Assembly (NCBI GenBank): GCA_017537345.1
Contig: JAFYKY010000017.1
Coordinates: 62,001-126,000, forward strand
Length of the DNA: 64,000 bases
Source of the DNA: Clostridia bacterium
GTDB lineage: Bacteria; Bacillota; Clostridia; Oscillospirales; CAG-382
Direction: 5' to 3'
Positions 7,237 to 22,676 of this stretch are shown here, piece by piece. A model generated the notes under the pieces. It made no database searches. It was not told the origin of the DNA and worked only from the letters and a program-made list of their open reading frames with translations. The position numbers and the translations under genes were made by a program. The first letter of the stretch is position 1, and every line of letters starts with the position of its first letter.

Positions 7237-8649
7237 GTGGTATTTTCATCCCTTATATTCCTTTTTTCATATTTGACTGTAACGCTGCTTCTTTATTTTA
7301 CGTTACCTAAAAAGTGGAGAAATGCCGTACTGTTTACAGTTTCTCTCATTTTCTACGGATGGGGCGAGCCTGCATATATTCTGGTAATGCTCGTATCTAT
7401 TCTTGCGGCTTACCTATTTGGATTTTTGATAGACAAGAATCGCGAGAGCAATAAACGGAAAGCAAAGCTGTATATGGTGCTTTCTCTGTGCTCCAATCTG
7501 GTATTTTTGCTGTTTTTCAAATATTGTAACTTTTTTATAGAAAACCTCTCTCTTATCCCGTTTTTATCTTCTCTTGAACCTATCAAGGGATTGGTACTGC
7601 CTGTTGGTATATCCTTTTATACCTTCCAGATAATGTCATATACCATAGATCTGTACAGAGGACACACCGCAGTTCAGCGTAATTTCGTGGCGTTTGGCAC
7701 CTACGTAACCCTTTTCCCTCAGCTTATCGCAGGTCCTATCGTAAGATACAGAGATATAGACGATCAGCTTATCACCCGTGAACATAGTGTAGAAAAGTTT
7801 TCAGAGGGTATCCGCCGTTTTTGCGCCGGACTTGCAAAGAAAGTTCTGCTGGCAGACACTATATTTGCCGTAGCGGAATATTTTCAGTCCCTTCACGGTA
7901 TACAGCCCACCGTTGCGGGAAGCTGGATGATAGTTATATGCTATACCTTCCAGATATATTTTGATTTCTCCGGTTATTCCGATATGGCTATCGGCTTGGG
8001 TAAGATGATCGGATTTGAATTTTTGGAAAACTTTAACTATCCCTATATGGCGGGCAGTATTACAGATTTCTGGCGCCGTTGGCATATGTCGCTTTCCACT
8101 TGGTTCAAGGAATACGTGTATATTCCCCTCGGCGGAAACAGAAAGGGCCTTTTAAAGCAGTACCGCAATATAGCCATAGTATGGCTTCTCACCGGCTTTT
8201 GGCACGGAGCAAACTGGAATTTTATCCTTTGGGGCGTGTATTTCGGCGCTCTGCTAATGCTGGAGAAGACCTTTATACTTAAGGTGCTCAATAAAATTCC
8301 CAAGGTGTTCAGCCATATATACGCATTGTTGTTTATAGCAATAGGTTGGCTCATATTCTTCTTTACGGATATGTCTGCCGGTTGGAGCGTATTTACCACA
8401 ATGTTTGGATTTGGAAATGCAGATTTTACCACCGCTACCGTAAATTACGATATTCTCCGTAACCTTGCTCTTATTGTTATCTGCATTATCGGCAGTACGC
8501 CTTATCCCAAGAAGCTGTATTACTATCTTGTAAAACGGTTCCGCACCATTGAATACCTTTCGCCCGTCCTCACCTGCGGCTCTTTCTTGCTGTGCGTCGC
8601 TTATATGGTGGACAGCACCTTCAGCCCGTTTTTGTATTACAATTTCTAA
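7237..8649 (+). CDS. MBOAT family O-acyltransferase (AlgI/PatA-like)
   Basis: This 470-residue polytopic membrane protein has the MBOAT signature: DFWRRWHMSLSTWFKEYVYIP with His283, and FWHGANWNFILWG with the expected catalytic His323. AlgI-type proteins move acetyl groups across the membrane to a periplasmic or extracellular partner that modifies polysaccharide. The start is GTG at 7237 with GAAAGG upstream. The partner is the DHHW protein encoded 15 bases downstream. The target polymer cannot be read from the sequence. Confidence 0.88.
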   Translation: MVFSSLIFLFSYLTVTLLLYFTLPKKWRNAVLFTVSLIFYGWGEPAYILVMLVSILAAYLFGFLIDKNRESNKRKAKLYMVLSLCSNLVFLLFFKYCNFFIENLSLIPFLSSLEPIKGLVLPVGISFYTFQIMSYTIDLYRGHTAVQRNFVAFGTYVTLFPQLIAGPIVRYRDIDDQLITREHSVEKFSEGIRRFCAGLAKKVLLADTIFAVAEYFQSLHGIQPTVAGSWMIVICYTFQIYFDFSGYSDMAIGLGKMIGFEFLENFNYPYMAGSITDFWRRWHMSLSTWFKEYVYIPLGGNRKGLLKQYRNIAIVWLLTGFWHGANWNFILWGVYFGALLMLEKTFILKVLNKIPKVFSHIYALLFIAIGWLIFFFTDMSAGWSVFTTMFGFGNADFTTATVNYDILRNLALIVICIIGSTPYPKKLYYYLVKRFRTIEYLSPVLTCGSFLLCVAYMVDSTFSPFLYYNF

Positions 8650-8664
8650 AGGGAGGGAAAGACT

Positions 8665-9831
8665 ATGAAAAAAATAACGAATATTATCACCATCGTTTTG
8701 TTTTTGGCAATTTTGTTCGGTCTTTCCGTCGCCTTTGTTGCTATGCCGGATAAAAGCTATTCCGAAAACGAAAAACGCAACCTGCAGACCTTCCCGGAAT
8801 TTTCTCTTGAATCTCTTATGGACGGCAAGTTTTCTTCCGAAATAAACGAGTATTTTGCAGACCAGTTTCCTCTGCGCGATGCTTTTGTAAGCATAAAAGC
8901 CCTTGCGGAGCTTTCATTGTTAAAGGGCGAAAACAACGGTGTTTTGCTGGGCGAAAACGAAACTCTTGCGGTGCGTACCTTCTCCATCTTCAAGGACAGG
9001 CTCAACCGTACCGAGGGTATGGATCATTTTTACGAAAACAGCGTTGAAAAACAGCTTGAAGCACTTAATAAATTCGCTTCCGAAAAGGCGTCCGTTCCCG
9101 TTCACGTAATTATTCCTCCCAGAGTAATAGACGTGGCTTCGGAGAGCTTTGATTACCCCTCCAACGTTTCCGTTTCTTTGGATGCGCTTATATCCGAAAC
9201 CATTTCGGAAGATATATACATCCCCCTTTCTTCCGTGTTAAAGGAAAAATATTCGGAAGGGGAGTACGTTTATTACCGTACCGACCATCATTGGACAACT
9301 CTCGGCGCGTACTACGCTTACGTAGAGATAATGCGCTCCTTCGGTATGGAGGAGGATATTATCCCCCGCGATAAATTTACGGTAAACGTTGCGGCAGATG
9401 ATTTTTACGGAACAACCTGGTCCAAATGCGGTTTTTCCTTCGTTTCTCCCGATACAATGGAATTCTGGTCCCTTGGCAACGAGGATGAATTTACCACTAC
9501 CATAGGCGAAAGATCCTTTAGCGGATTTTACGATATGTCCTATCTTGAAACCATGGATAAGTATTCCGCATTCATCAGCGGTACGAACGATATTACTCTG
9601 GTAACGAATAATACAAAAACCGACCGTCCCGTACTGCTTTTACCCAAGGATTCCTTTGCAAACAGCCTTGTGCCTTTCCTTGCACAGCACTTTGATCTGG
9701 TGCTGGTAAATATGGCAAACCGTATGACAAATATTTCCGCTTATACAGAACAGTATTCCGCCGACCGTATCCTTTTCGTATGGAACGCAGAAAACCTGAT
9801 CACAAGCGGTAATTTAGGAAATATCAATTAA
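8665..9831 (+). CDS. DHHW-motif SGNH-like acyltransferase (AlgJ/AlgX type), partner of the MBOAT protein
   Basis: This 388-residue protein has one N-terminal membrane anchor (about 7-27) and an extracytoplasmic domain with YYRTDHHWTTLGAYYAY; DHHW is at 207-210 and names the clostridial DHHW family. Such proteins accept acetyl groups from the MBOAT partner and esterify cell-surface glycans. GGGAGG precedes the ATG. The pair is closed by the terminator at 9844-9871. A second AlgX-like protein, a lipoprotein, is encoded alone at 38124-39533. Confidence 0.85.
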   Translation: MKKITNIITIVLFLAILFGLSVAFVAMPDKSYSENEKRNLQTFPEFSLESLMDGKFSSEINEYFADQFPLRDAFVSIKALAELSLLKGENNGVLLGENETLAVRTFSIFKDRLNRTEGMDHFYENSVEKQLEALNKFASEKASVPVHVIIPPRVIDVASESFDYPSNVSVSLDALISETISEDIYIPLSSVLKEKYSEGEYVYYRTDHHWTTLGAYYAYVEIMRSFGMEEDIIPRDKFTVNVAADDFYGTTWSKCGFSFVSPDTMEFWSLGNEDEFTTTIGERSFSGFYDMSYLETMDKYSAFISGTNDITLVTNNTKTDRPVLLLPKDSFANSLVPFLAQHFDLVLVNMANRMTNISAYTEQYSADRILFVWNAENLITSGNLGNIN

Positions 9832-12548: not shown

Positions 12549-13061
12549 TTAGCCTTTAATGCCTTTTACGAAATCACGGATATCCTCAAGAGCCTTAAGT
12601 GTCTTTTCTTCAACAGTAGGTTCGGGAGGAATAGCAGCCTTTGCGGCTTCTTCTGCAGCCTTTGCCGCAGCTTCTTCTGCTTTTTTCTTTGCTTCCAGCT
12701 TGTTGCGTACGGACATAGCAACCTTTACAACGATAAACATAGCGAAAGCAATGATTACGAAATCAATTATGTACTGAATAAACTGACCGTACTTAACAGC
12801 TACCTCTGCAACTGCAGGGGTAATTACCGCGCCGGTTTCGTCAACCACCTCGGCAACAGACTCTACCAGCACCCATTTGAGTTCGGTGAAGTTAACATCA
12901 CCAAGCAGACAGCCGATAACGGGCATTATGATGTCTGCAACCAGGGAAGAAACGATAGCCTTGAAAGCGGTACCGACAACTACGCCGACTGCCATATCAA
13001 GGATATTACCCTGAGAAATAAACTTTTTAAAATCGTTTGCAAAATTTTTAACTTTTCCCAT
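12549..13061 (-). CDS. mscL: Large-conductance mechanosensitive channel MscL
   Basis: This 170-residue protein has the MscL N-terminal helix (KKFISQGNILDMAVGVVVGTAF), TM1, a periplasmic loop and TM2 (FIQYIIDFVIIAFAMFIVV), then a C-terminal Ala/Glu/Lys-rich helical bundle. The homopentamer opens on membrane stretch to release solutes during hypo-osmotic shock. The loop and cytoplasmic tail are somewhat longer than in the roughly 136-residue E. coli protein. The gene is 2 bases from the DUF1858 gene upstream and 6 bases from the BadF gene downstream. Confidence 0.93.
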   Translation of the reverse strand: MGKVKNFANDFKKFISQGNILDMAVGVVVGTAFKAIVSSLVADIIMPVIGCLLGDVNFTELKWVLVESVAEVVDETGAVITPAVAEVAVKYGQFIQYIIDFVIIAFAMFIVVKVAMSVRNKLEAKKKAEEAAAKAAEEAAKAAIPPEPTVEEKTLKALEDIRDFVKGIKG

Positions 13062-13252: not shown

Positions 13253-15964
13253 TTAATTTACCTCCTCGTCTTTCGCCAATTTGAATTTTGGTTTATTTTT
13301 ATTTTTAATTATTATTGCCTGAATAAGCTTTACTACCTGAGTAAATGCGTAATAACCCAGCGTTATTGCAGCAGTAATACCGTATGCAAAAGCAGAGGGC
13401 TGTACATACCCGAACAACTGCGCCAAAGGCGGCAGGTATACGATACAGGCGTAAAGCGCCGCTACTATGAAGGCGGACAAAACAAGTTTTCCTATTCCCA
13501 AGGGTGTTGTTGTGAATATGGGCTTTTTGGATACGTTTGTTATTCCGTAGGTAATAAGAAGCGCGGTCAGGGATAAAAGCGCGCAGGTGTTTCCGAACAA
13601 AACGTATACTGCGGTGACTGCGGCTCCCGCTCCCACGGCGTAGATGATAGGTTGAACAAAATCCAAAAGCTTGGGTTTCGTTCTGTATTTTTTCATTTTT
13701 TCCGCAAGAATGTTTTTGTTCGGCGCGGCAAATGCAAGTGAAGCCGCGATAATGAAATTGAAAATAATTCCGCCAAACAGCATATCCTGAAGTCTTAACG
13801 GAAAGTCGATACCGAAAGCCAGCGCGGCAACGGAAGCGGTAAGCACCGCCGAAAATCCCACAAACAGATATTCCGTTACGGCGTGTATTCGGGCAACGAT
13901 CGCCTTTGCGGCGCCTATAGCGTAGGTAATAACGTGGAAACCGCCTTCAAGCATAATAACGTCGCTTTCCTGCTTTAATGTATCCGGCGTTTCGGTGTCG
14001 CTTACAAAGGTTACGTCCGCTTCGTGAATAAGCGGCAGATCGTCCATACTGTTTGCGGTAACGGCAACGTAGCGTTTATCGCTGTGTCTGTATCCCAAAA
14101 CTTCCCGCCACTGTTCATCGTCAATTCCCACGTACAGCTTGTACAAGGGTTGGTTGGCGATATACAGACCGGGGTCGGTTTCACTTATATCCTCTGCGGA
14201 TATGGCTTGGGATTCATCGGTAATAATCCCGGCTTCCTTTGCAAGAGCAAGGGAAGGGTAGTAAGCATCGTTGCTTCTTAAAACCGCTTCTATTCCCGCT
14301 CTGCGGCATTTATATACCGCGGCGGCAGGGTCTACACGGAAAGCGGAACCCAGACCGATAAAACCGGAAAGTATAAGTCTGCTTTCCACGGAATAATCCT
14401 GCAACGAATCGGCGTCGGTACGTCCCGTGGCAACGGCTATGACCGTTTCTGCTTTTTTACGCATTTCCTCCAAAGCCGTCTGCATACGCGTTACTGCAGC
14501 GTCGTTCATACGGTAAACGGAACCGTTTTTGCGGTATCCAACGCAACGGCTCATTACGGATTCGGGGTTTCCGCGCACTATAACAAAGGTTTTTCCTTCG
14601 GAAAGTACAAGAGTCCGGGTAACTATATTGTCTGAAGATACCTCGGTATCTATACGGAAAAATTCGCCTTCAAGATTGGAAATATCCGCAAGCAGAAAAT
14701 CGCAGGCATCGGCAATAGCAATATCCTGCTTTCTGCCGGTGTATTTGTGTTGTCCCCGCTGACGGCCCTTTTCGTCGGCGTTTTTCTTGATATCCGAACA
14801 AACCAAAGCGTATTTCAGCAGTTTTTTGTTGTTTTCGTTTTCTTCGGCTTCTCGGATATCTTTGACTTTGCCGTCGATATACAGTTCGGTAACAAACATT
14901 TTTTTAGGCGGGAAGGCTTGTCCTTTTGCGCACATTACCGTGTCCACGTTGCCAAGCTTGCCTATACTGTTCAGGTTTCCCACGGCGGCGTTGTTTTCAA
15001 GCATTTTTTCAACACCGTAGCCAAGGGAAATAAAGGCAAGGGCTTTACAACTGTCATACATAGATATGTAGCCCAGCGTAAGGGAGAGAATAAACATATC
15101 CGTAATGCTTCTTCCCGCGGCAACGCCCAGTATCAATAATATAAAGCATATTATTACCGAAACGAAGGACATTGCTTTTCCCACGTGGGAAGCGTATTTA
15201 AGCAGACCGGGGGTATAATCCTGTGAATGCTTTGTGTTCATTTTACGGGTAAGCACGTTTTTACCCGTTTCGCATACGATAGCGATACCGCTTCCTCCCG
15301 TAACAACGGTTCCCGCATATACCATGTTGGTATGGCACAGCATATCGGGGCGGTTATATTCGATAGCCGAAGATTTGTACACCGCTTCATTCTTTCCGTT
15401 AATGGATGCTTCCAAAACGGAAAGGTGGGCGCAGGAGATAATTCGGGCGTCGGCAGGGACAATATTTCCCGTTTCCAGCGTTATAATATCTCCCGGCACA
15501 AGACCGCGGCTGTCTATAACGAATCGTCTTCCGTTTCTCGTAACGGTAGCGCGTATGGCAGAATAGTTTCGTATCTTTTCCAAAGAATGGGAAGCGGATG
15601 CCTCAAGTACCGCATTTATAAACATAATTATAATAACGGTAACTCCCAGCACGATAAGTTCATGCCTTTCGGGCTGAAACACGTACATCAAAAAGGCAAC
15701 GGCGGCAAGGAAAATTCCCATGAGTCCCTGAAGCTGATTTTTGAAGCTGGAGGTAAAGCCTGTCTTTATCTCATCGTAAAGAGCATTTGAACCCTTTTCA
15801 CGTCTTATCCTCTTTACGTCTTCATCACTTAAGCCGTCCCCAAGATTACTGCCAAGCTTTATGGCAAGCTCCTCTATATCCATGGATTCCGGTTCGAACC
15901 TATCCTCCGCCTGCTTACGGCTGTTAGAGGTTATTGTTCTTATTTTCTCGGAATAATCCGGCAT
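13253..15964 (-). CDS. P-type ATPase-like membrane protein lacking all catalytic motifs (pseudoenzyme)
   Basis: This 903-residue protein follows the P2 (Ca2+-type) ATPase plan: N-terminal cation-ATPase domain, TM1-2 (about 75-120), actuator domain, TM3-4 (265-315), P and N domains (340-690) and six C-terminal TMs. Each signature is altered. TGES reads NGKN (189-192). PEGL reads YDSC (303-306). The DKTGT phosphorylation site reads AKGQAF (346-351), with no Asp. TGDH reads RSND (563-566). TGDGVND reads TANSMDD (635-641). KGxPE survives as RGNPE (464-468), and DP at 545-546 is kept. The reading frame is intact, with AAAGGAG before the ATG, so this is not simple decay. A sensor, scaffold or regulatory role is inferred, not ATP-driven transport. 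It lies between the clpE-like gene and DUF1858. Confidence 0.85.
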   Translation of the reverse strand: MPDYSEKIRTITSNSRKQAEDRFEPESMDIEELAIKLGSNLGDGLSDEDVKRIRREKGSNALYDEIKTGFTSSFKNQLQGLMGIFLAAVAFLMYVFQPERHELIVLGVTVIIIMFINAVLEASASHSLEKIRNYSAIRATVTRNGRRFVIDSRGLVPGDIITLETGNIVPADARIISCAHLSVLEASINGKNEAVYKSSAIEYNRPDMLCHTNMVYAGTVVTGGSGIAIVCETGKNVLTRKMNTKHSQDYTPGLLKYASHVGKAMSFVSVIICFILLILGVAAGRSITDMFILSLTLGYISMYDSCKALAFISLGYGVEKMLENNAAVGNLNSIGKLGNVDTVMCAKGQAFPPKKMFVTELYIDGKVKDIREAEENENNKKLLKYALVCSDIKKNADEKGRQRGQHKYTGRKQDIAIADACDFLLADISNLEGEFFRIDTEVSSDNIVTRTLVLSEGKTFVIVRGNPESVMSRCVGYRKNGSVYRMNDAAVTRMQTALEEMRKKAETVIAVATGRTDADSLQDYSVESRLILSGFIGLGSAFRVDPAAAVYKCRRAGIEAVLRSNDAYYPSLALAKEAGIITDESQAISAEDISETDPGLYIANQPLYKLYVGIDDEQWREVLGYRHSDKRYVAVTANSMDDLPLIHEADVTFVSDTETPDTLKQESDVIMLEGGFHVITYAIGAAKAIVARIHAVTEYLFVGFSAVLTASVAALAFGIDFPLRLQDMLFGGIIFNFIIAASLAFAAPNKNILAEKMKKYRTKPKLLDFVQPIIYAVGAGAAVTAVYVLFGNTCALLSLTALLITYGITNVSKKPIFTTTPLGIGKLVLSAFIVAALYACIVYLPPLAQLFGYVQPSAFAYGITAAITLGYYAFTQVVKLIQAIIIKNKNKPKFKLAKDEEVN

Positions 15965-16003: not shown

Positions 16004-18289
16004 TTAAAAGGTGGTTATGGTTATGCCGTTTTGATCGGCAGATAACGCAACTGCGGTTATCTTTAAAGAGGTGTCCTCGATAATTGCAGTGGCAACCGCA
16101 TCTTCAATATCCGTCTGTATAAGACGGCGGAGATTACGGGCACCGTATTTTTCGGAATAACCCTTTTCAACCAAAGCGTTAACAGCCGCCTCATCATAGG
16201 TGAGGGTAATATTCTTTTCTGCCAATACCTTTTCAAGATCACCGAGCATTATACGGCAGATAGAAGCAAAATTATCTTTGGAAAGTCTGTTGAATACAAC
16301 AATCTCGTCCACGCGGTTAATGAACTCGGGACGTAAGAATTGCTCAAGTGCTTTTTTAACCTTTGCTTCGTCTGAAGCTTTTGCGGTGGTCGTGAATCCT
16401 GCAGAGGCGGAAATATCCGTACTGCCCGCATTGGTGGTCATAACGATAACCGTATTTTCAAAGTTTACTGTCTTTCCGTGGGAATCGGTAATTCTGCCAT
16501 CATCAAGTATCTGCAAAAGAATATTCAATACGTCGGGATGCGCTTTTTCTATCTCGTCAAAGAGAATTACGGAATAAGGCTTGCGGCGTATTTTTTCGGT
16601 AAGCTGTCCCGCATCGTCGTAGCCCACGTAACCGGGAGGGGAGCCGATAATTCTGGAAACGGAATATTTTTCCATATATTCCGACATATCCAGACGTATA
16701 AGGGATTCGGGGGAATCGAACAAATAGTTTGCCAGCACCTTTACAAGCTCGGTCTTTCCTATACCGGTAGGACCTGCAAATATAAAGGAAACGGGCTTCT
16801 TTTTATAGGAAATTCCCGCACGGGAGCGGCGAACAGCCTTTGCAACCTTTTCCACCGCTTCGTCCTGACCCACAATACGGTCCTTTATGGAAGGAACCAG
16901 CTTTTGGATTTTTTCGAATTCGTTTTCGCTTATGCTGGAAGCGGGGATACCCGTCCATATTTCGATAACCTTTGCAAGGTCTTTTTCGGTTACGGTAAGA
17001 GTATCTCTCTGTGCGGAGAGGGAATCAAAGGATTCGTTCTTTTGCAAAAGAACGGTACGGTTTTGAGCAATAGCCGCAAAATCCTCGTCTGTTTTTTCCG
17101 CCTTTGCTTCCAATGCAGCTTGCTTTTCGTTAAGCTCTTTTATCTCGTCTGCCAAAGCGTTGATTTGGTTTACTATATCCGAATTCATAGAAAGATTTGC
17201 GCAGGCTTCGTCCATAAGGTCTATCGCCTTGTCGGGCAGGTATCTGTCTGTAATATATCTTTCGGAAAGCACAACCATTCTGCGGCACATTTCATCGGAA
17301 ATATGGATACCGTGGTACTTTTCGTAGTTATCCTTAATACCCTGAAGTATCTTTACGCTGTCTTCAATGGAAGGCTCGTTTATCATGACAGGCTGGAATC
17401 TGCGTTCCAACGCCGCGTCTTTTTCAATATACTTTCTGTATTCGGTAAGGGTGGTTGCGCCTATAAGCTGAATTTCTCCTCTGGAAAGTGCAGGCTTAAG
17501 AATGTTTGCGGCGTTCATACCGCCTTCCGCATCGCCTGCTCCCACAATGGAGTGGACTTCATCTATAACCAGTATAATATTTCCGTTTTGCTTTACCTCG
17601 TCTATAAGCCCTTTCATACGGCTTTCGAACTGACCTCTGAACTGGGTGCCCGCAACCATGGCGGTCATATCAACCAGCATAACTTCCTTGCTCTTAAGCT
17701 TGTAAGGTACGTCGCCCTTTACTATTCTGGCGGCAAGGGCTTCCGCAACTGCGGTCTTACCTACACCCGGCTCACCTATAAGGCAAGGGTTGTTCTTCTG
17801 GCGGCGGCAGAGTATCTGCATAACGCGCTCTAATTCTTCGTTTCTGCCGATAACCTTATCCAGCTTGCCTTCTTTTGCTCTGCCGGTAAGGTCTATACAG
17901 TACTGCTCGAGATATTTTCTGTTTTTTTGCTTTTTGTTTTCCTGCTTGTTTTCCTTGCTTTGCTGCTTGTCTTTTCTGATATTATCGGGAAGATTGAGCC
18001 CTTCCTGAGAAGCAAATAAGGGACCGAGATTCAGAGAGGGCGCTCTGCCTTCGTTTTCTGTGCTGTCACCGCCTTCGGTGGGTACAAGACCTGAAATCTC
18101 ATCGGACATCGCGTCAAATTCCTCGGGGGTTATGCCCATACGCTCAAGAATATCGTCAACGGGCTTTAATCCCATTTCACGCGCGCATTTAAGACACAAT
18201 CCTTCGTTTGTGGTATTACCGTTTTCTATACGCTGCATATATATTACAGCCACACGCTTTTTACAGCGGGAACATAATTTCAAAACCAT
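16004..18289 (-). CDS. Clp/Hsp100 ATPase with N-terminal zinc finger (ClpE-like)
   Basis: This 761-residue protein has an N-terminal C4 zinc finger (C6, C9, C32, C35) instead of the Clp_N repeat, a charged linker (about 75-130), AAA-1 with Walker A GEPGVGKT, a short coiled middle region (about 370-430) and AAA-2 with Walker A GPTGIGKT and Walker B ILFDEIEKAHPD. The zinc finger at the N-terminus is a ClpE hallmark. It should unfold substrates for ClpP; an AGF tripeptide after TNAGSTD could be the ClpP-binding loop. AAGGAG precedes the ATG. cvpA ends 18 bases upstream. Confidence 0.85.
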   Translation of the reverse strand: MVLKLCSRCKKRVAVIYMQRIENGNTTNEGLCLKCAREMGLKPVDDILERMGITPEEFDAMSDEISGLVPTEGGDSTENEGRAPSLNLGPLFASQEGLNLPDNIRKDKQQSKENKQENKKQKNRKYLEQYCIDLTGRAKEGKLDKVIGRNEELERVMQILCRRQKNNPCLIGEPGVGKTAVAEALAARIVKGDVPYKLKSKEVMLVDMTAMVAGTQFRGQFESRMKGLIDEVKQNGNIILVIDEVHSIVGAGDAEGGMNAANILKPALSRGEIQLIGATTLTEYRKYIEKDAALERRFQPVMINEPSIEDSVKILQGIKDNYEKYHGIHISDEMCRRMVVLSERYITDRYLPDKAIDLMDEACANLSMNSDIVNQINALADEIKELNEKQAALEAKAEKTDEDFAAIAQNRTVLLQKNESFDSLSAQRDTLTVTEKDLAKVIEIWTGIPASSISENEFEKIQKLVPSIKDRIVGQDEAVEKVAKAVRRSRAGISYKKKPVSFIFAGPTGIGKTELVKVLANYLFDSPESLIRLDMSEYMEKYSVSRIIGSPPGYVGYDDAGQLTEKIRRKPYSVILFDEIEKAHPDVLNILLQILDDGRITDSHGKTVNFENTVIVMTTNAGSTDISASAGFTTTAKASDEAKVKKALEQFLRPEFINRVDEIVVFNRLSKDNFASICRIMLGDLEKVLAEKNITLTYDEAAVNALVEKGYSEKYGARNLRRLIQTDIEDAVATAIIEDTSLKITAVALSADQNGITITTF

Positions 18290-18307: not shown

Positions 18308-19018
18308 TTAAAATAACATACGAAAAATATTAAAACTTCCGAAGAACTTAAAAAGGAAAGTGTTCTCGGGTGTAAAGCTTGCAAAGATACCGCTGAGCGC
18401 GTTTACGGGAAGGAGTAATTGCACCAGCGAAACGAACACGCATGCTTCCGCAATCGCCAGAACGATACCCACAACTATTCCCAAAACGGTGTTTGCCTGT
18501 TTCAGGACGGGAAGCTTGGTAAACTTATCCAAAAGGAACACAGCCACAGCGGATATTATATAAACGATAAGAAAGATGGCTATGAACGAACAGAAGGTAA
18601 CCGCCGCTTTCAAAAGCATAGGCGATATTTTTGCGGCAATGGATTCTTTAATCTCGTCGCTTTTGGATTCCTTCCATTTTTCAATGTCTGTTTTCAACTC
18701 CTCGGTTTCAACACCCAGCGAGGAAAGCAGACCTTCGATCTGCGGAAGCACATCGTTTTCCTCTTTTACATCTTCCGTATCGCTTCCCATTCTGTCCAGA
18801 ACGGTTTCTACGGATTGGTGTATCTTGATCTCCCAGGTGAAAGCGTCGTTGGTGCTTAAAACGTAATCTCTTACGGGATTAACAAAGGAAAACGCCGCAA
18901 TAAGCGCCACCACGAGAACGAGGGATTTTAAAGCCATTTTCACAAAGCCCTGCTTCCAACCCAAAATAACGTTGAAAGCAATTATAGCCAAAATAATTAT
19001 ATCAACAGCAATATTCAT
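18308..19018 (-). CDS. CvpA family membrane protein
   Basis: This 236-residue protein has four hydrophobic segments (about 3-20, 28-48, 135-165, 175-205) and the CvpA start pattern (DIIILAIIAFNVILGWKQGFVK). A long hydrophilic, Glu/Lys-rich loop sits between TM2 and TM3. CvpA proteins are linked to colicin V export and to envelope integrity; their exact activity is not known. The start overlaps the DUF5711 stop by 4 bases, so the two are translationally coupled. Confidence 0.82.
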   Translation of the reverse strand: MNIAVDIIILAIIAFNVILGWKQGFVKMALKSLVLVVALIAAFSFVNPVRDYVLSTNDAFTWEIKIHQSVETVLDRMGSDTEDVKEENDVLPQIEGLLSSLGVETEELKTDIEKWKESKSDEIKESIAAKISPMLLKAAVTFCSFIAIFLIVYIISAVAVFLLDKFTKLPVLKQANTVLGIVVGIVLAIAEACVFVSLVQLLLPVNALSGIFASFTPENTFLFKFFGSFNIFRMLF

Positions 19019-20283
19019 TCACTGACCTCCGTAAAAGAAGCATCTTCGGGCTGTATCTCTGTTTCATCAAGAGTATTTGCATCGTATACAGTAACGCCGG
19101 AATAGGTGAAAACCAACAGCTTATCGTCGGAGATCAGCATATCCACACCGTCGTTACCGGTTTGAATATCATAAATCTTCTTATCTTCGTTGAAATCGTA
19201 TACGGTAAGATCTCCTGCGGAAAGCATATAGAGTCTGTTTCCGTAAAGCAAAACGTCATCCGGTCTGGAAACCGCTTCGGTACGGTAAACGTTATTTCCG
19301 TTGGAATCGTAAACCATCATTTCCTTGCTTTCGGAAAGACCGGAGTTATCAAAGGTAAGCATTACGTGGTTTCCGCCGAAATCGCAGTTGAGCAGATTGC
19401 CGGAAACCGCAACTTCTTTTATCAAAACGTTATCTCTGCCGTAAAAGCGAAGCGCCTTGTCTGTCAGCACGATATATCCGCCGTTATCTGTAAAACAGCA
19501 GTTGAGGGGAAGCTCGCCCACGTATCTGAAGTTTGCCAAAGGCTCTTCCGCAGTAGTGCTGAACAAGGATGCGGAGCCGAGATAATCGCCGTTTTCGCTA
19601 ATATGTGAAAGCACCAAGACCTTTTGTCCGTCTTTGCTGATCTGCATTGCGGTGGAATATTCGGTAGGGAAGTAATGGGAAAAGGTAAGGCGGTAGTTAG
19701 CGTCGTAAACGTATACGGCGCTTCTGTAATTCTTTGCGCCGGAAAGCACGGCGTAGCTGCCGTTTTCCGCGGCGGAAACTCCCAGCACGGGATACCCGAA
19801 GTTTTCGGAATAAACGTGTGAGAAGGAGTTGTAAACGTCAAGCTGTTTTCCGCCCAGATCGTATATTATCATATTCTTTCCCGCAGTAAGCAAAACGGGG
19901 TTATCGTTTTTCACGGGAGTTCTCTGCAAAAGCTGTCCCGAAGTGTCGTAAACGGTGAGCTGTGTTTTGCTTAACACCGCAATATCACCGCGGACAATGG
20001 CAAATCTGTTTGTGGGATCCGCATCGAAAATTATTTCCGAACCCACCACTACCTGCTCGTTCTGCTCAAAGGAAATGAATTTAAGCAGATATTTGAAATT
20101 TTCCGCCGTAAGCTCATCGGGGAAAAAGGAATATGCAAACAAACAGAATATGATCAAAGCTATTATTACCGAAAACATACCTATTTTTGCACGGTTCGCC
20201 AAACGGGTATAATAAGCCTGCGCCGTAGGAGTCTGCTGTTTATTCTGTTTTCTTTTATCTTTAAAAATAGAAAAAGCGCTCAT
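19015..20283 (-). CDS. DUF5711 family membrane-anchored beta-propeller protein
   Basis: This 422-residue protein has a basic cytoplasmic N-terminus, one TM (about 33-53) and an extracellular region of repeated four-stranded units with VYD-type turns (LTVYDTSGQLL, YVYDANYRL, MVYDSNGNNVY, LTVYDFNEDKK, VTVYDANTLDE), typical of a PQQ/WD-like propeller. I recognise this as DUF5711, common in Oscillospiraceae, function unknown. Coupling to cvpA suggests a joint envelope function. Confidence 0.75.
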   Translation of the reverse strand: MSAFSIFKDKRKQNKQQTPTAQAYYTRLANRAKIGMFSVIIALIIFCLFAYSFFPDELTAENFKYLLKFISFEQNEQVVVGSEIIFDADPTNRFAIVRGDIAVLSKTQLTVYDTSGQLLQRTPVKNDNPVLLTAGKNMIIYDLGGKQLDVYNSFSHVYSENFGYPVLGVSAAENGSYAVLSGAKNYRSAVYVYDANYRLTFSHYFPTEYSTAMQISKDGQKVLVLSHISENGDYLGSASLFSTTAEEPLANFRYVGELPLNCCFTDNGGYIVLTDKALRFYGRDNVLIKEVAVSGNLLNCDFGGNHVMLTFDNSGLSESKEMMVYDSNGNNVYRTEAVSRPDDVLLYGNRLYMLSAGDLTVYDFNEDKKIYDIQTGNDGVDMLISDDKLLVFTYSGVTVYDANTLDETEIQPEDASFTEVSE

Positions 20284-20285
20284 CT

Positions 20286-21017
20286 TTACCTCGTATAAAC
20301 AAGCTTGTTCAAAAATAATCCTTTCGCAGGAGCGGTAATACCTGCTTTATTTCTGTCAAGTGCGGCTGTAACGGCGGGAATATCCGTGCATTTGCTGCCA
20401 TAAGCGGCTTCAACCAGAGTACCCGTCATTATTCTCACCATATTATACAAAAATCCGTCTGCCGCCACGTTTATTCTTATGTAATCTCCGTCGCGGGTAA
20501 CGTTCATATATTTTACGGTGCGCACCGTATCGGTTATCTTACTTCCTGCGGACATATAGGATCTGAAATCCTTTTTGCCCACAAAGTTCTGAGCAAGCAA
20601 AGCCATTTTATCCGCATCCAGCGGACGGGGGCAGTGCCACACTCTGTTATCAAATACGTTTTTTATTCTTGAATTCCATATTACGTATTCGTATTCCTTT
20701 TCTATACAGCTGTATCTGGGGTGAAAATCCTCGGGTACGGCTTTCGCTTTAAGGGCGCAGATATCGGACGGCAGTATGGAATTAAGGGCAAGGGGAAGAC
20801 CGGTTTCGGATATCTCCGCAACGTCGGAAATAACGCAAACGTATTCACGGGCGTGAACACCGGAATCCGTGCGGGAGCATCCGGTCACGTTGGGACGGAT
20901 ACCGAAAACCTTTTCGGCGGCGTCCTGCACTGTCTGCTGTATGCTTATTGCATTGTTCTGAACCTGCCATCCGCAGTATGCGGTGCCGTCAAAGGCTAAA
21001 GTTACGGCGTAATTCAC
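20286..21017 (-). CDS. truA: tRNA pseudouridine synthase A
   Basis: This 243-residue protein begins LAFDGTAYCGWQVQ and has GCSRTDSGVHA with the catalytic Asp, and LYNMVRIMTGTLVEA. It isomerises U38-U40 in the anticodon arm of many tRNAs. Length is normal. The start overlaps the ecfT stop by 4 bases, matching the common clostridial and bacillar order ecfA-ecfA2-ecfT-truA. Confidence 0.93.
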   Translation of the reverse strand: MNYAVTLAFDGTAYCGWQVQNNAISIQQTVQDAAEKVFGIRPNVTGCSRTDSGVHAREYVCVISDVAEISETGLPLALNSILPSDICALKAKAVPEDFHPRYSCIEKEYEYVIWNSRIKNVFDNRVWHCPRPLDADKMALLAQNFVGKKDFRSYMSAGSKITDTVRTVKYMNVTRDGDYIRINVAADGFLYNMVRIMTGTLVEAAYGSKCTDIPAVTAALDRNKAGITAPAKGLFLNKLVYTR

Positions 21018-21829
21018 AGAGGTATCACCACCTGATTAAGGAAAAATATACCTGCGCAGGCAATAATGGACATTCCAAGAAAAATATAGTCTGCAGGGCG
21101 TGTTTTTATAACCTTCATTCTGGTTTTTCCCACACCGCTTCTGTAACAGCGGCATTCCATTGCTTCTGCCAGTTCGAAAGCACGTCTGTATGCGGAAACG
21201 AACAGGGGAACCAGAATAGGAATCAGCGCTTTTGCTCTTGCAAATATGTTGCCCGATTCAAAATCTGCACCTCTTGCCTTTTGTGCGGAGATAATTTTGT
21301 CCGTTTCCTCAATAAGGGTGGGAATAAATCTCAGCGCAATAGACATCATCATAGCGAAATCGTGAACGGGAACGCCGATCTTCTTCAAAGGACCCAGCAG
21401 ACGTTCAATTCCGTCGGTAAGATCCAGCGGGGAAGTGGTGTAGGTAAGCAATACGCTGGTGCCGGATACAAGGCTGGTAAGACGGATCACCATTTTTACC
21501 GCATTTTCAATACCTTCACGGTATATCTTTATAAATTTCCATTGCCAGAGTATATCTTCGCCGTTGGCAAAAAACAGATTTATTACCGCAGTGAACAGCA
21601 AAATGAACAACAGCGGCTTTAAGGATTTCAGTACCGTTTTCAAGGGGATTTCGGATATTATCACAAGCAATCCCGTGGCTATTACCACAAAGCCGAAGGC
21701 GAAAGCGGTTTTTGCGCACAGCACGAACACCAGATACACAATAAGCATCAGTATCTTTATACGGGCGTCCGTACGGTGCAAAATGGAATCTCCCGGGAAA
21801 TACTGTCCCAGGGTTATATCTTTAAGCAT
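21014..21829 (-). CDS. ecfT: ECF transporter transmembrane (T) component
   Basis: This 271-residue integral membrane protein begins GQYFPGDSILHRTDARIK, the EcfT start, has TMs near 25-45, 70-90, 110-130 and 240-262, and contains the coupling-helix signature with small residues (AQKARGADFESG and RAFELAEAMECRCY). It couples the two ATPases to interchangeable vitamin-binding S components. It overlaps ecfA2 by 8 bases and truA by 4. Confidence 0.9.
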   Translation of the reverse strand: MLKDITLGQYFPGDSILHRTDARIKILMLIVYLVFVLCAKTAFAFGFVVIATGLLVIISEIPLKTVLKSLKPLLFILLFTAVINLFFANGEDILWQWKFIKIYREGIENAVKMVIRLTSLVSGTSVLLTYTTSPLDLTDGIERLLGPLKKIGVPVHDFAMMMSIALRFIPTLIEETDKIISAQKARGADFESGNIFARAKALIPILVPLFVSAYRRAFELAEAMECRCYRSGVGKTRMKVIKTRPADYIFLGMSIIACAGIFFLNQVVIPL

Positions 21830-22676
21830 TAAATATACCTTTTTCTCTTAGTAATTTTTCTCCGAACTTTACAGTGTAAACGTCGTCTCTTTCGGAAAGA
21901 CCGCGTTTTTTAAGTTCGTGAAACAGTCTTGTTATCTGAGGCAGGTCCAAGGATGAATTTGCCAGAGAATCGATATCGGAAAATATCTCTTCAACGCTTC
22001 CGTGGGCAAATACCTTACCTTCTTTAAGAACCAGAATCATATCGGAATACTTGGCAACGTCCTCCATGCTGTGGGAAATAAGTATCACCGTGCCGTCGGT
22101 TTCGTTTTTGTAGTTAATTATTCCGCTCAGAATATCGGTTTTTCCCACGGGGTCAAGTCCTGCCGCAGGCTCGTCAAGCACCAGATATTCGGGACGCATA
22201 GCCATGACTCCCGCAATGGCAACTCTCCGCTTTTGTCCGCCGGAAAGCTCAAAAGGGGAACGGTTCAGAGAATCTTCGGGAATACCGCACAGCTTTGCCG
22301 CTTCCGCAACCCGCAAAGCAATTTCGTTTTCGTTAAGTCCCATGTTTTTGGGCCCGAATGCAATATCCTTGCCCACGGTCTCCTCAAAAAGCTGGTATTC
22401 GGGATACTGGAACGCAAGTCCCACCTTAAAGCGGATCTTGGATATTTCCTTGGGCTTTTCCCATATATCCGTTCCGTCAAGATATATGTTTCCCGAAGTT
22501 GGCTTGTTAAGTCCGTTAAGAAGCTGTGCAAGGGTGGATTTTCCGCTTCCCGTATGACCTATGATTCCCGTTATCTTTCCTTTGGGGAATTCAATGTTGA
22601 TATTATCCAGAGCGATCTTTCGGAAAGGGGTTCCCTCGCCGTAGACCACCGATACGTTTTCAAGTTTTAAAGACAT
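21822..22676 (-). CDS. ecfA2: ECF transporter ATPase EcfA2
   Basis: This 284-residue ABC ATPase has Walker A GHTGSGKS, Q-loop FQYPEYQLFEETVGKDIAFGP, signature LSGGQKRRVAIAGV, Walker B YLVLDEPAAGLDP and the H-loop His in ISHSMED. The FPEYQLF-type Q-loop and position after ecfA1 identify it as EcfA2. It powers group II energy-coupling-factor uptake of vitamins and trace nutrients. Its start overlaps the end of ecfA1 by 10 bases. Confidence 0.9.
   Translation of the reverse strand: MSLKLENVSVVYGEGTPFRKIALDNINIEFPKGKITGIIGHTGSGKSTLAQLLNGLNKPTSGNIYLDGTDIWEKPKEISKIRFKVGLAFQYPEYQLFEETVGKDIAFGPKNMGLNENEIALRVAEAAKLCGIPEDSLNRSPFELSGGQKRRVAIAGVMAMRPEYLVLDEPAAGLDPVGKTDILSGIINYKNETDGTVILISHSMEDVAKYSDMILVLKEGKVFAHGSVEEIFSDIDSLANSSLDLPQITRLFHELKKRGLSERDDVYTVKFGEKLLREKGIFNA

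Follow-up and report, generated by a model that had tools for sequence, protein, structure and literature searches.

A probable pseudoenzyme of the P2-type ATPase lineage encoded beside clpE in one clostridial order

The phosphorylated aspartate is the defining feature of P-type ATPases. Dead P-type ATPase-like proteins are already known in eukaryotes, namely human TMEM94 (ERMA) and PfGC-beta, a guanylate cyclase of Plasmodium. TMEM94 has ten helices, lacks TGES and had no ATPase activity when measured, and it retains affinity for adenine nucleotides (PMC12134183). Whether it is a Mg2+ ATPase is contested between two papers (PMC12134183 and PMC13322241). For bacteria, we found no description of a dead P-type ATPase family in the open-access literature, which is the literature covered. 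The available parts of a review of P-type ATPase enigmas (PMC10654040) hold no bacterial example, and those of a pseudoenzyme review (PMC10211241) no bacterial dead P-type ATPase. Working relatives include LMCA1, the P2A-type Ca2+-ATPase of Listeria (lmo0841; PDB 6zhf, 9euq). From an unrelated fold, the membrane protein YqgP acts as an adaptor of FtsH independently of its own catalysis (PMC7231995). Here we describe a gene for a P-type ATPase-like protein in a 64,000-nucleotide stretch of a Clostridia bacterium genome (the window) and its relatives in the same order.

The gene and its catalytic motifs

The gene lies on the minus strand at 13253–15964, reading from an ATG at 15964 down to 13253, and its 903 codons form an intact open frame, as the original prediction had it. 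A Shine-Dalgarno-like AAAGGAG precedes the start. All five genomes of the window's genus carry an ortholog at 79–93% identity, one of them truncated by a contig end; those records that bear a name are 'Clostridia bacterium' MAGs from the ruminant gut. Because these orthologs are independent, a sequencing or assembly artefact of the MAG was rejected.

Pfam matches to the protein are E1-E2_ATPase (2.4e-25), Cation_ATPase_N (1.9e-8) and Cation_ATPase_C (1.3e-6). Pfam and NCBIfam together assign it to the P2-type cation ATPases, but it falls far short of the scores that the curated models of working subfamilies demand (205 bits for TIGR01522, cut-off 798 bits). A profile of the family aligns with LMCA1 over profile positions 41–891 (E 1.9e-100). 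The homology is full-length, with actuator (A), P, N and membrane domains present, and the profile matches and the LMCA1 alignment bear out the P2-type domain order that had been proposed. By homology, membership of the P-type ATPase superfamily and its P2 lineage is certain. The A domain (residues ~136–250, 15215–15559, minus strand; Pfam PF00122 at 135–320) is the best-conserved part, with a dN/dS of 0.01–0.09, and retains LVPGDxIxLExGxxVPADAR. AlphaFold2, run on an alignment of only five sequences, gave a pLDDT of 31 and a pTM of 0.22, values too low for the model to be used.

We read off 14 catalytic positions (SERCA numbering) in an alignment that also included 40 active relatives. The window protein retains three, K352, D627 and D707, and has lost E183, D351, T353, G354, T355, T625 (now Ser), G626, K684 (now Trp), G702, D703 and N706. 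All 40 active relatives keep 14 of 14, a difference far beyond chance. Hallmarks of a functional P-type ATPase are replaced, all on the minus strand: the DKTGT loop with its phosphorylated Asp (CSDKTGTLTQ) reads MCAKGQAFPP (D351 to Ala; residues 344–353, 14906–14935), the dephosphorylation motif TGES reads NGKN (E183 to Lys; residues 189–192, 15389–15400), and at the GDGxND Mg2+ site TGDGVND reads TANSMDD (D703 to Asn, D707 kept; residues 636–642, 14039–14059), with Trp619 in place of the catalytic Lys684 (14108–14110). The nucleotide-site motif KGAPE is RGNPE (residues 464–468, 14561–14575), and the equivalent of TGD is SND, with its Asp retained (residues 564–566, 14267–14275). In the membrane, PEGL of M4 is YDSC (E309 to Asp; residues 303–306, 15047–15058); most relatives have CDS there, so that the acid stays as Asp. 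M6 carries GIIFN (residues 732–736, 13757–13771), in which the cation ligands N796, T799 and D800 read G, F and N. The P2A Ca2+-ATPase ligands E309, N796 and D800 are accordingly D, G and N in this protein. We infer from these replacements that pump activity is absent.

The original prediction had named the changes at TGES, PEGL, DKTGT and TGDGVND and the missing phosphorylated Asp, and the alignment agrees on each. Its reading of TGDH as RSND was one residue out of register: the true equivalent is SNDA, which keeps D627. Its wider statement that every catalytic signature is replaced holds for most sites but not for the TGD Asp or the second Asp of GDGVND. The retained K352 and the change of K684 to W619 were not on its list. 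That the motifs might be present but misaligned was rejected, as the blocks flanking them align well; moreover, once the window's own locus is set aside, the best 29 class-level matches are active proteins that all carry DKTGT and GDGxND.

Relatives, ancestry and selection

We searched for orthologs among MAGs of the order, using coded taxonomy in which family 1 is the family of the window genome and families 17 and 20 belong to the same order. At a presence threshold of E ≤ 1e-60, the dead pump is found in 48 of 63 family-1 genomes: nine genera have it in every genome, 48 in all, and four other genera lack it throughout. In those four genera active P2-type ATPases have also mostly been lost (present in 2 of 15 genomes). 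Searching the order with a profile turned up orthologs in 20 family-17 genomes. Inspecting the gene after clpE in 38 genomes or loci across the order added six copies at the same locus in family 20, more degraded than the others, and a dead pump in no other family beyond 1 and 17. Other long ORFs after clpE, of 766, 865, 663 and 655 aa in families 18, 24, 7 and 8, had no profile match and by eye seem unrelated. Family 20 includes a 689-residue P-type ATPase-like protein apparently without most of its P and N region (L205:1317-3383) and a 1160-residue one with big low-complexity insertions (L176:3343-6822); Pfam still detects the A domain in those family-20 copies examined. Since those best 29 class-level matches are all active, dead pumps seem, to the depth of this search, to be restricted to the one order.

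We built a tree from 84 proteins (IQ-TREE, LG+C20, quick search). In it a single branch with SH-aLRT 100% separates 61 dead from 23 active proteins, with active P2-type proteins from the same class as the only outgroup. Each of the three families (1, 17 and 20) is a single group, although the exact placement of family 20, whose branches are long, is unsure. The common place of the genes after clpE is evidence of orthology that does not depend on the tree.

Loss of the active site varies in degree. Counted over 66 dead and 40 active proteins, family-1 members retain 1–5 of the 14 catalytic residues (median 3) and family-17 members 1–5 (median 4). An intact DKTGT was sought in the 68 dead proteins of the two families and found in none. 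Some relatives keep the phosphorylation Asp, the TGES Glu or the TGD Asp: Asp occupies position 351 in 7 of 48 proteins from family 1 (genus g5, CDKxxxAF) and in 9 of 20 from family 17, the TGES Glu is present in 7/48 and 0/20, and D627 is retained in 41 of 46 family-1 proteins. The genus g5 proteins (L049, L051, L060, L061, L064, L065 and L050) have Asp-Lys at the phosphorylation site without the TGT loop, and are candidates for residual chemistry. Replacements in family 1 are consistent. The consensus at the DKTGT loop is MCxKxxAFPP, with P352 (of protein residues 344–353) invariant, and 45 of 46 proteins have Trp in place of K684, the W619 of the window protein; in family 17 this position is still Lys in 13 of 20. 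This consistency suggests an active site in family 1 that has been remodelled rather than one that is decaying.

Between members of the genus, dN/dS of the dead pump (Nei-Gojobori) is 0.074–0.102; active paralogs of the same genomes have 0.046–0.167, ClpE has 0.03–0.06 and the kinase downstream about 0.24. Values from comparisons with G003, where dS exceeds 1, are rough. Per-domain values are given here for the two comparisons with unsaturated dS (window versus G004 and G002) and are 0.01–0.03 for A, 0.04 for P2, 0.06 for N and 0.13–0.15 for M5-10, which places the strongest constraint on the cytosolic side. Between genera the dead pump is more variable than active pumps (mean column entropy 2.0–2.6 versus 0.9–2.1), as expected where catalysis is no longer a constraint. 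A few matches read through a stop in the C-terminal region, and the main frame is clearly broken in none of more than 70 copies. The original prediction of selection on a non-catalytic role gains support from the absence of an intact-DKTGT ortholog, of clear frameshifts and of relaxed selection in close relatives, where dN/dS is like that of active paralogs. Combining enzyme-family homology, lost catalytic motifs and maintenance by selection, the 903-residue protein is, with high confidence from sequence comparison, a pseudoenzyme kept by selection.

The clpE locus and possible roles

Directly upstream of the dead pump, 39 nt away, is a ClpE-type AAA+ unfoldase (16004–18289), preceded in the same run by a CvpA family membrane protein (18308–19018), a DUF5711 protein (19015–20283) and truA-, ecfT- and ecfA-like genes (20286–22676), a conserved upstream block. 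MscL (12549–13061) follows downstream, a neighbour in most family-1 loci only. All are on the minus strand. The ClpE-like unfoldase and the channel had been named as neighbours beforehand; a DUF1858 protein, also named, had no match among the five neighbours scanned (ClpE, CvpA, DUF5711, MscL and a BadF/NagK-type kinase). Across relatives the co-directional run before the dead pump is ecfA-ecfT-truA-DUF5711-cvpA-(pgsA)-clpE. The pgsA-like CDP-alcohol phosphatidyltransferase stands between cvpA and clpE in many relatives (L123:12152-12742), including the genus member G002, and is absent there in the window genome (18289–18308). Elsewhere in the window, at 7237–9831, an MBOAT-type O-acyltransferase is followed by an AlgX-like protein (by eye), which suggests a pair for acetylating an exopolysaccharide or the cell wall.

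As a sign of a ClpE adaptor or partner, we looked for a conserved genetic link to clpE, which is present in 66 of the 67 loci of families 1 and 17 with enough flanking sequence to be testable. Of the testable family-1 loci, 47/47 have a ClpE-type gene immediately before the dead pump in the same orientation, as do 19/20 from family 17, with an alignment gap of 2–202 nt; the six family-20 loci are arranged likewise. In one family-17 genome the dead pump is away from clpE, which is on another contig. No ClpE-type gene was seen upstream of the active relatives at their loci, a few of which have little flank. The upstream block is conserved between families and the downstream genes differ, being mscL-nagK-thrS in most of family 1 and genes for TrmK-, Nif3- and RqcH-like products (by eye) in family 17. 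No minus-strand terminator-like site was seen between clpE and the dead pump; together with the good ribosome-binding site, this fits co-expression of the two genes.

We read the protein as the descendant of a P2-type, Ca2+-ATPase-like pump that keeps the cytosolic A, P and N domains and the membrane part, has lost the chemistry of the phosphorylation cycle, and has passed down vertically as a pseudoenzyme within three families of a single clostridial order. Our tentative best guess for its job is that of a membrane adaptor or receptor of ClpE. It is probably produced along with this Hsp100 unfoldase encoded next to it; anchored in the membrane, it could use its A, P and N domains to recruit or regulate ClpE or to present clients to it, and might bind a nucleotide or cation as a non-hydrolysed signal. 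Two observations favour this guess: adjacency to clpE recurs in each of the three families, and the cytosolic domains are the most constrained. We hold the physical partnership and any ligand sensing less firmly. Against a ClpE adaptor, ClpE is kept in families without the pseudo-ATPase, the strong divergence of orthologs between families is loose for a conserved interface, and the adjacency, lying within a longer conserved block, may reflect operon inheritance rather than partnership. Family-1 carriers have one ClpC/E-type unfoldase match (48/48). Two are seen in 11 of 15 non-carriers, the extra one presumably being ClpC. Co-loss with ClpC was rejected as a general signature of a partner, since several family-17 and family-20 carriers have two matches. 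That the bacterial family as a whole forms a ligand-responsive quality-control platform at the membrane, as receptor or adaptor of ClpE-type Hsp100 proteins, is possible, though we would lean against it.

Dead paralogs regulate an active partner in several enzymes. The pseudo-ATPase could likewise be a regulatory subunit that tunes an active P2-type Ca2+-ATPase, for which the prozyme that activates AdoMetDC offers a precedent (PMC5201418), and an active P2 ATPase is indeed present in 47/48 family-1 carriers versus 2/15 non-carriers. However, the baseline for the order is 137 of 157 genomes, dead pump present or not, and four family-17 carriers have no active P2 match, one of them in a genome 94% complete (G169); co-occurrence was rejected as a general rule on these grounds. 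The dead pump genes are also not adjacent to active pumps, and both family-1 contrasts, in unfoldase number and in active P2 pumps, may rest on few genus-level events. We consider this role unlikely. A passive or gated ion or lipid pathway, or a cation sensor with M4 binding uncoupled from ATP, would account for the M4 acid (D or E, mostly Asp) in 41/48 family-1 and 17/20 family-17 proteins, and TMEM94, which is P-type-like without measurable ATPase activity, carries lipid near M4 (PMC12134183). In M6, however, family 1 has GxxxN in place of NxxTD (N796 to Gly in 44/46, D800 to Asn in 43/46), these positions are not conserved in family 17, and M5-10 is the least constrained part of the protein, which leaves such a pathway or sensor rather unlikely.

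The remaining explanations are less probable still. An enzyme still active on ATP or phosphoryl groups, with altered chemistry through the retained Asp627 and Asp707 (and in some lineages Asp351, Lys352 and Lys684), would be in keeping with the 9 of 20 family-17 proteins that hold three of the core residues D351, K684, D703 and D707, with the basic residue and Gly kept at the KGAPE site in 46/46 family-1 proteins, and with the migration of catalytic residues that pseudoenzymes can show (PMC10211241). Family-1 proteins keep none or one of those four, with K684 almost always Trp and D703 lost in 46/46 (kept in 4/20 of family 17), and we regard a divergent enzyme as improbable. The greater column entropy and the strongly degraded family-20 copies, one of them without most of the P and N region, would suit a relic decaying slowly within a housekeeping operon. 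The selection data largely refute this: with dN/dS at 0.07–0.10, no clearly broken copy and presence throughout the nine carrying genera, a relic is very improbable. The ClpE adaptor or receptor remains our preferred reading.

Comparison with known systems

The gene has stayed intact beside one AAA+ unfoldase across three families while its catalytic set was lost, which suggests that the pump scaffold is valuable without pumping and that the pump body has been reused for another job. The families offer successive stages of active-site loss, with family 17 less degraded and family 20 more, and let one ask directly whether a transporter fold can be put to use as an adaptor for proteolysis.

Among described proteins, LMCA1 shares the full-length alignment, the domain order and the core motifs of the A domain, but the dead pump is without its phosphorylation, dephosphorylation, Mg-binding and cation-binding residues. 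TMEM94 is likewise built as a P-type protein, with domains resembling A, P and N (PMC12134183). It differs in being a eukaryotic ER protein, and the likeness is one of description that does not imply common descent with the dead pump. To our knowledge, no AAA+ linkage is known for TMEM94. PfGC-beta also has a P-type ATPase body that has lost most signature residues (PMC6592433), but it is eukaryotic, and its degenerate domain is P4-ATPase-like, of the P4 rather than the P2 lineage, and fused to cyclase domains. The rhomboid YqgP of B. subtilis resembles the proposed role as a membrane protein that serves an AAA+ machine with no need of its own catalysis (PMC7231995); its fold is unrelated and its partner is FtsH, so the parallel is a functional analogy only.
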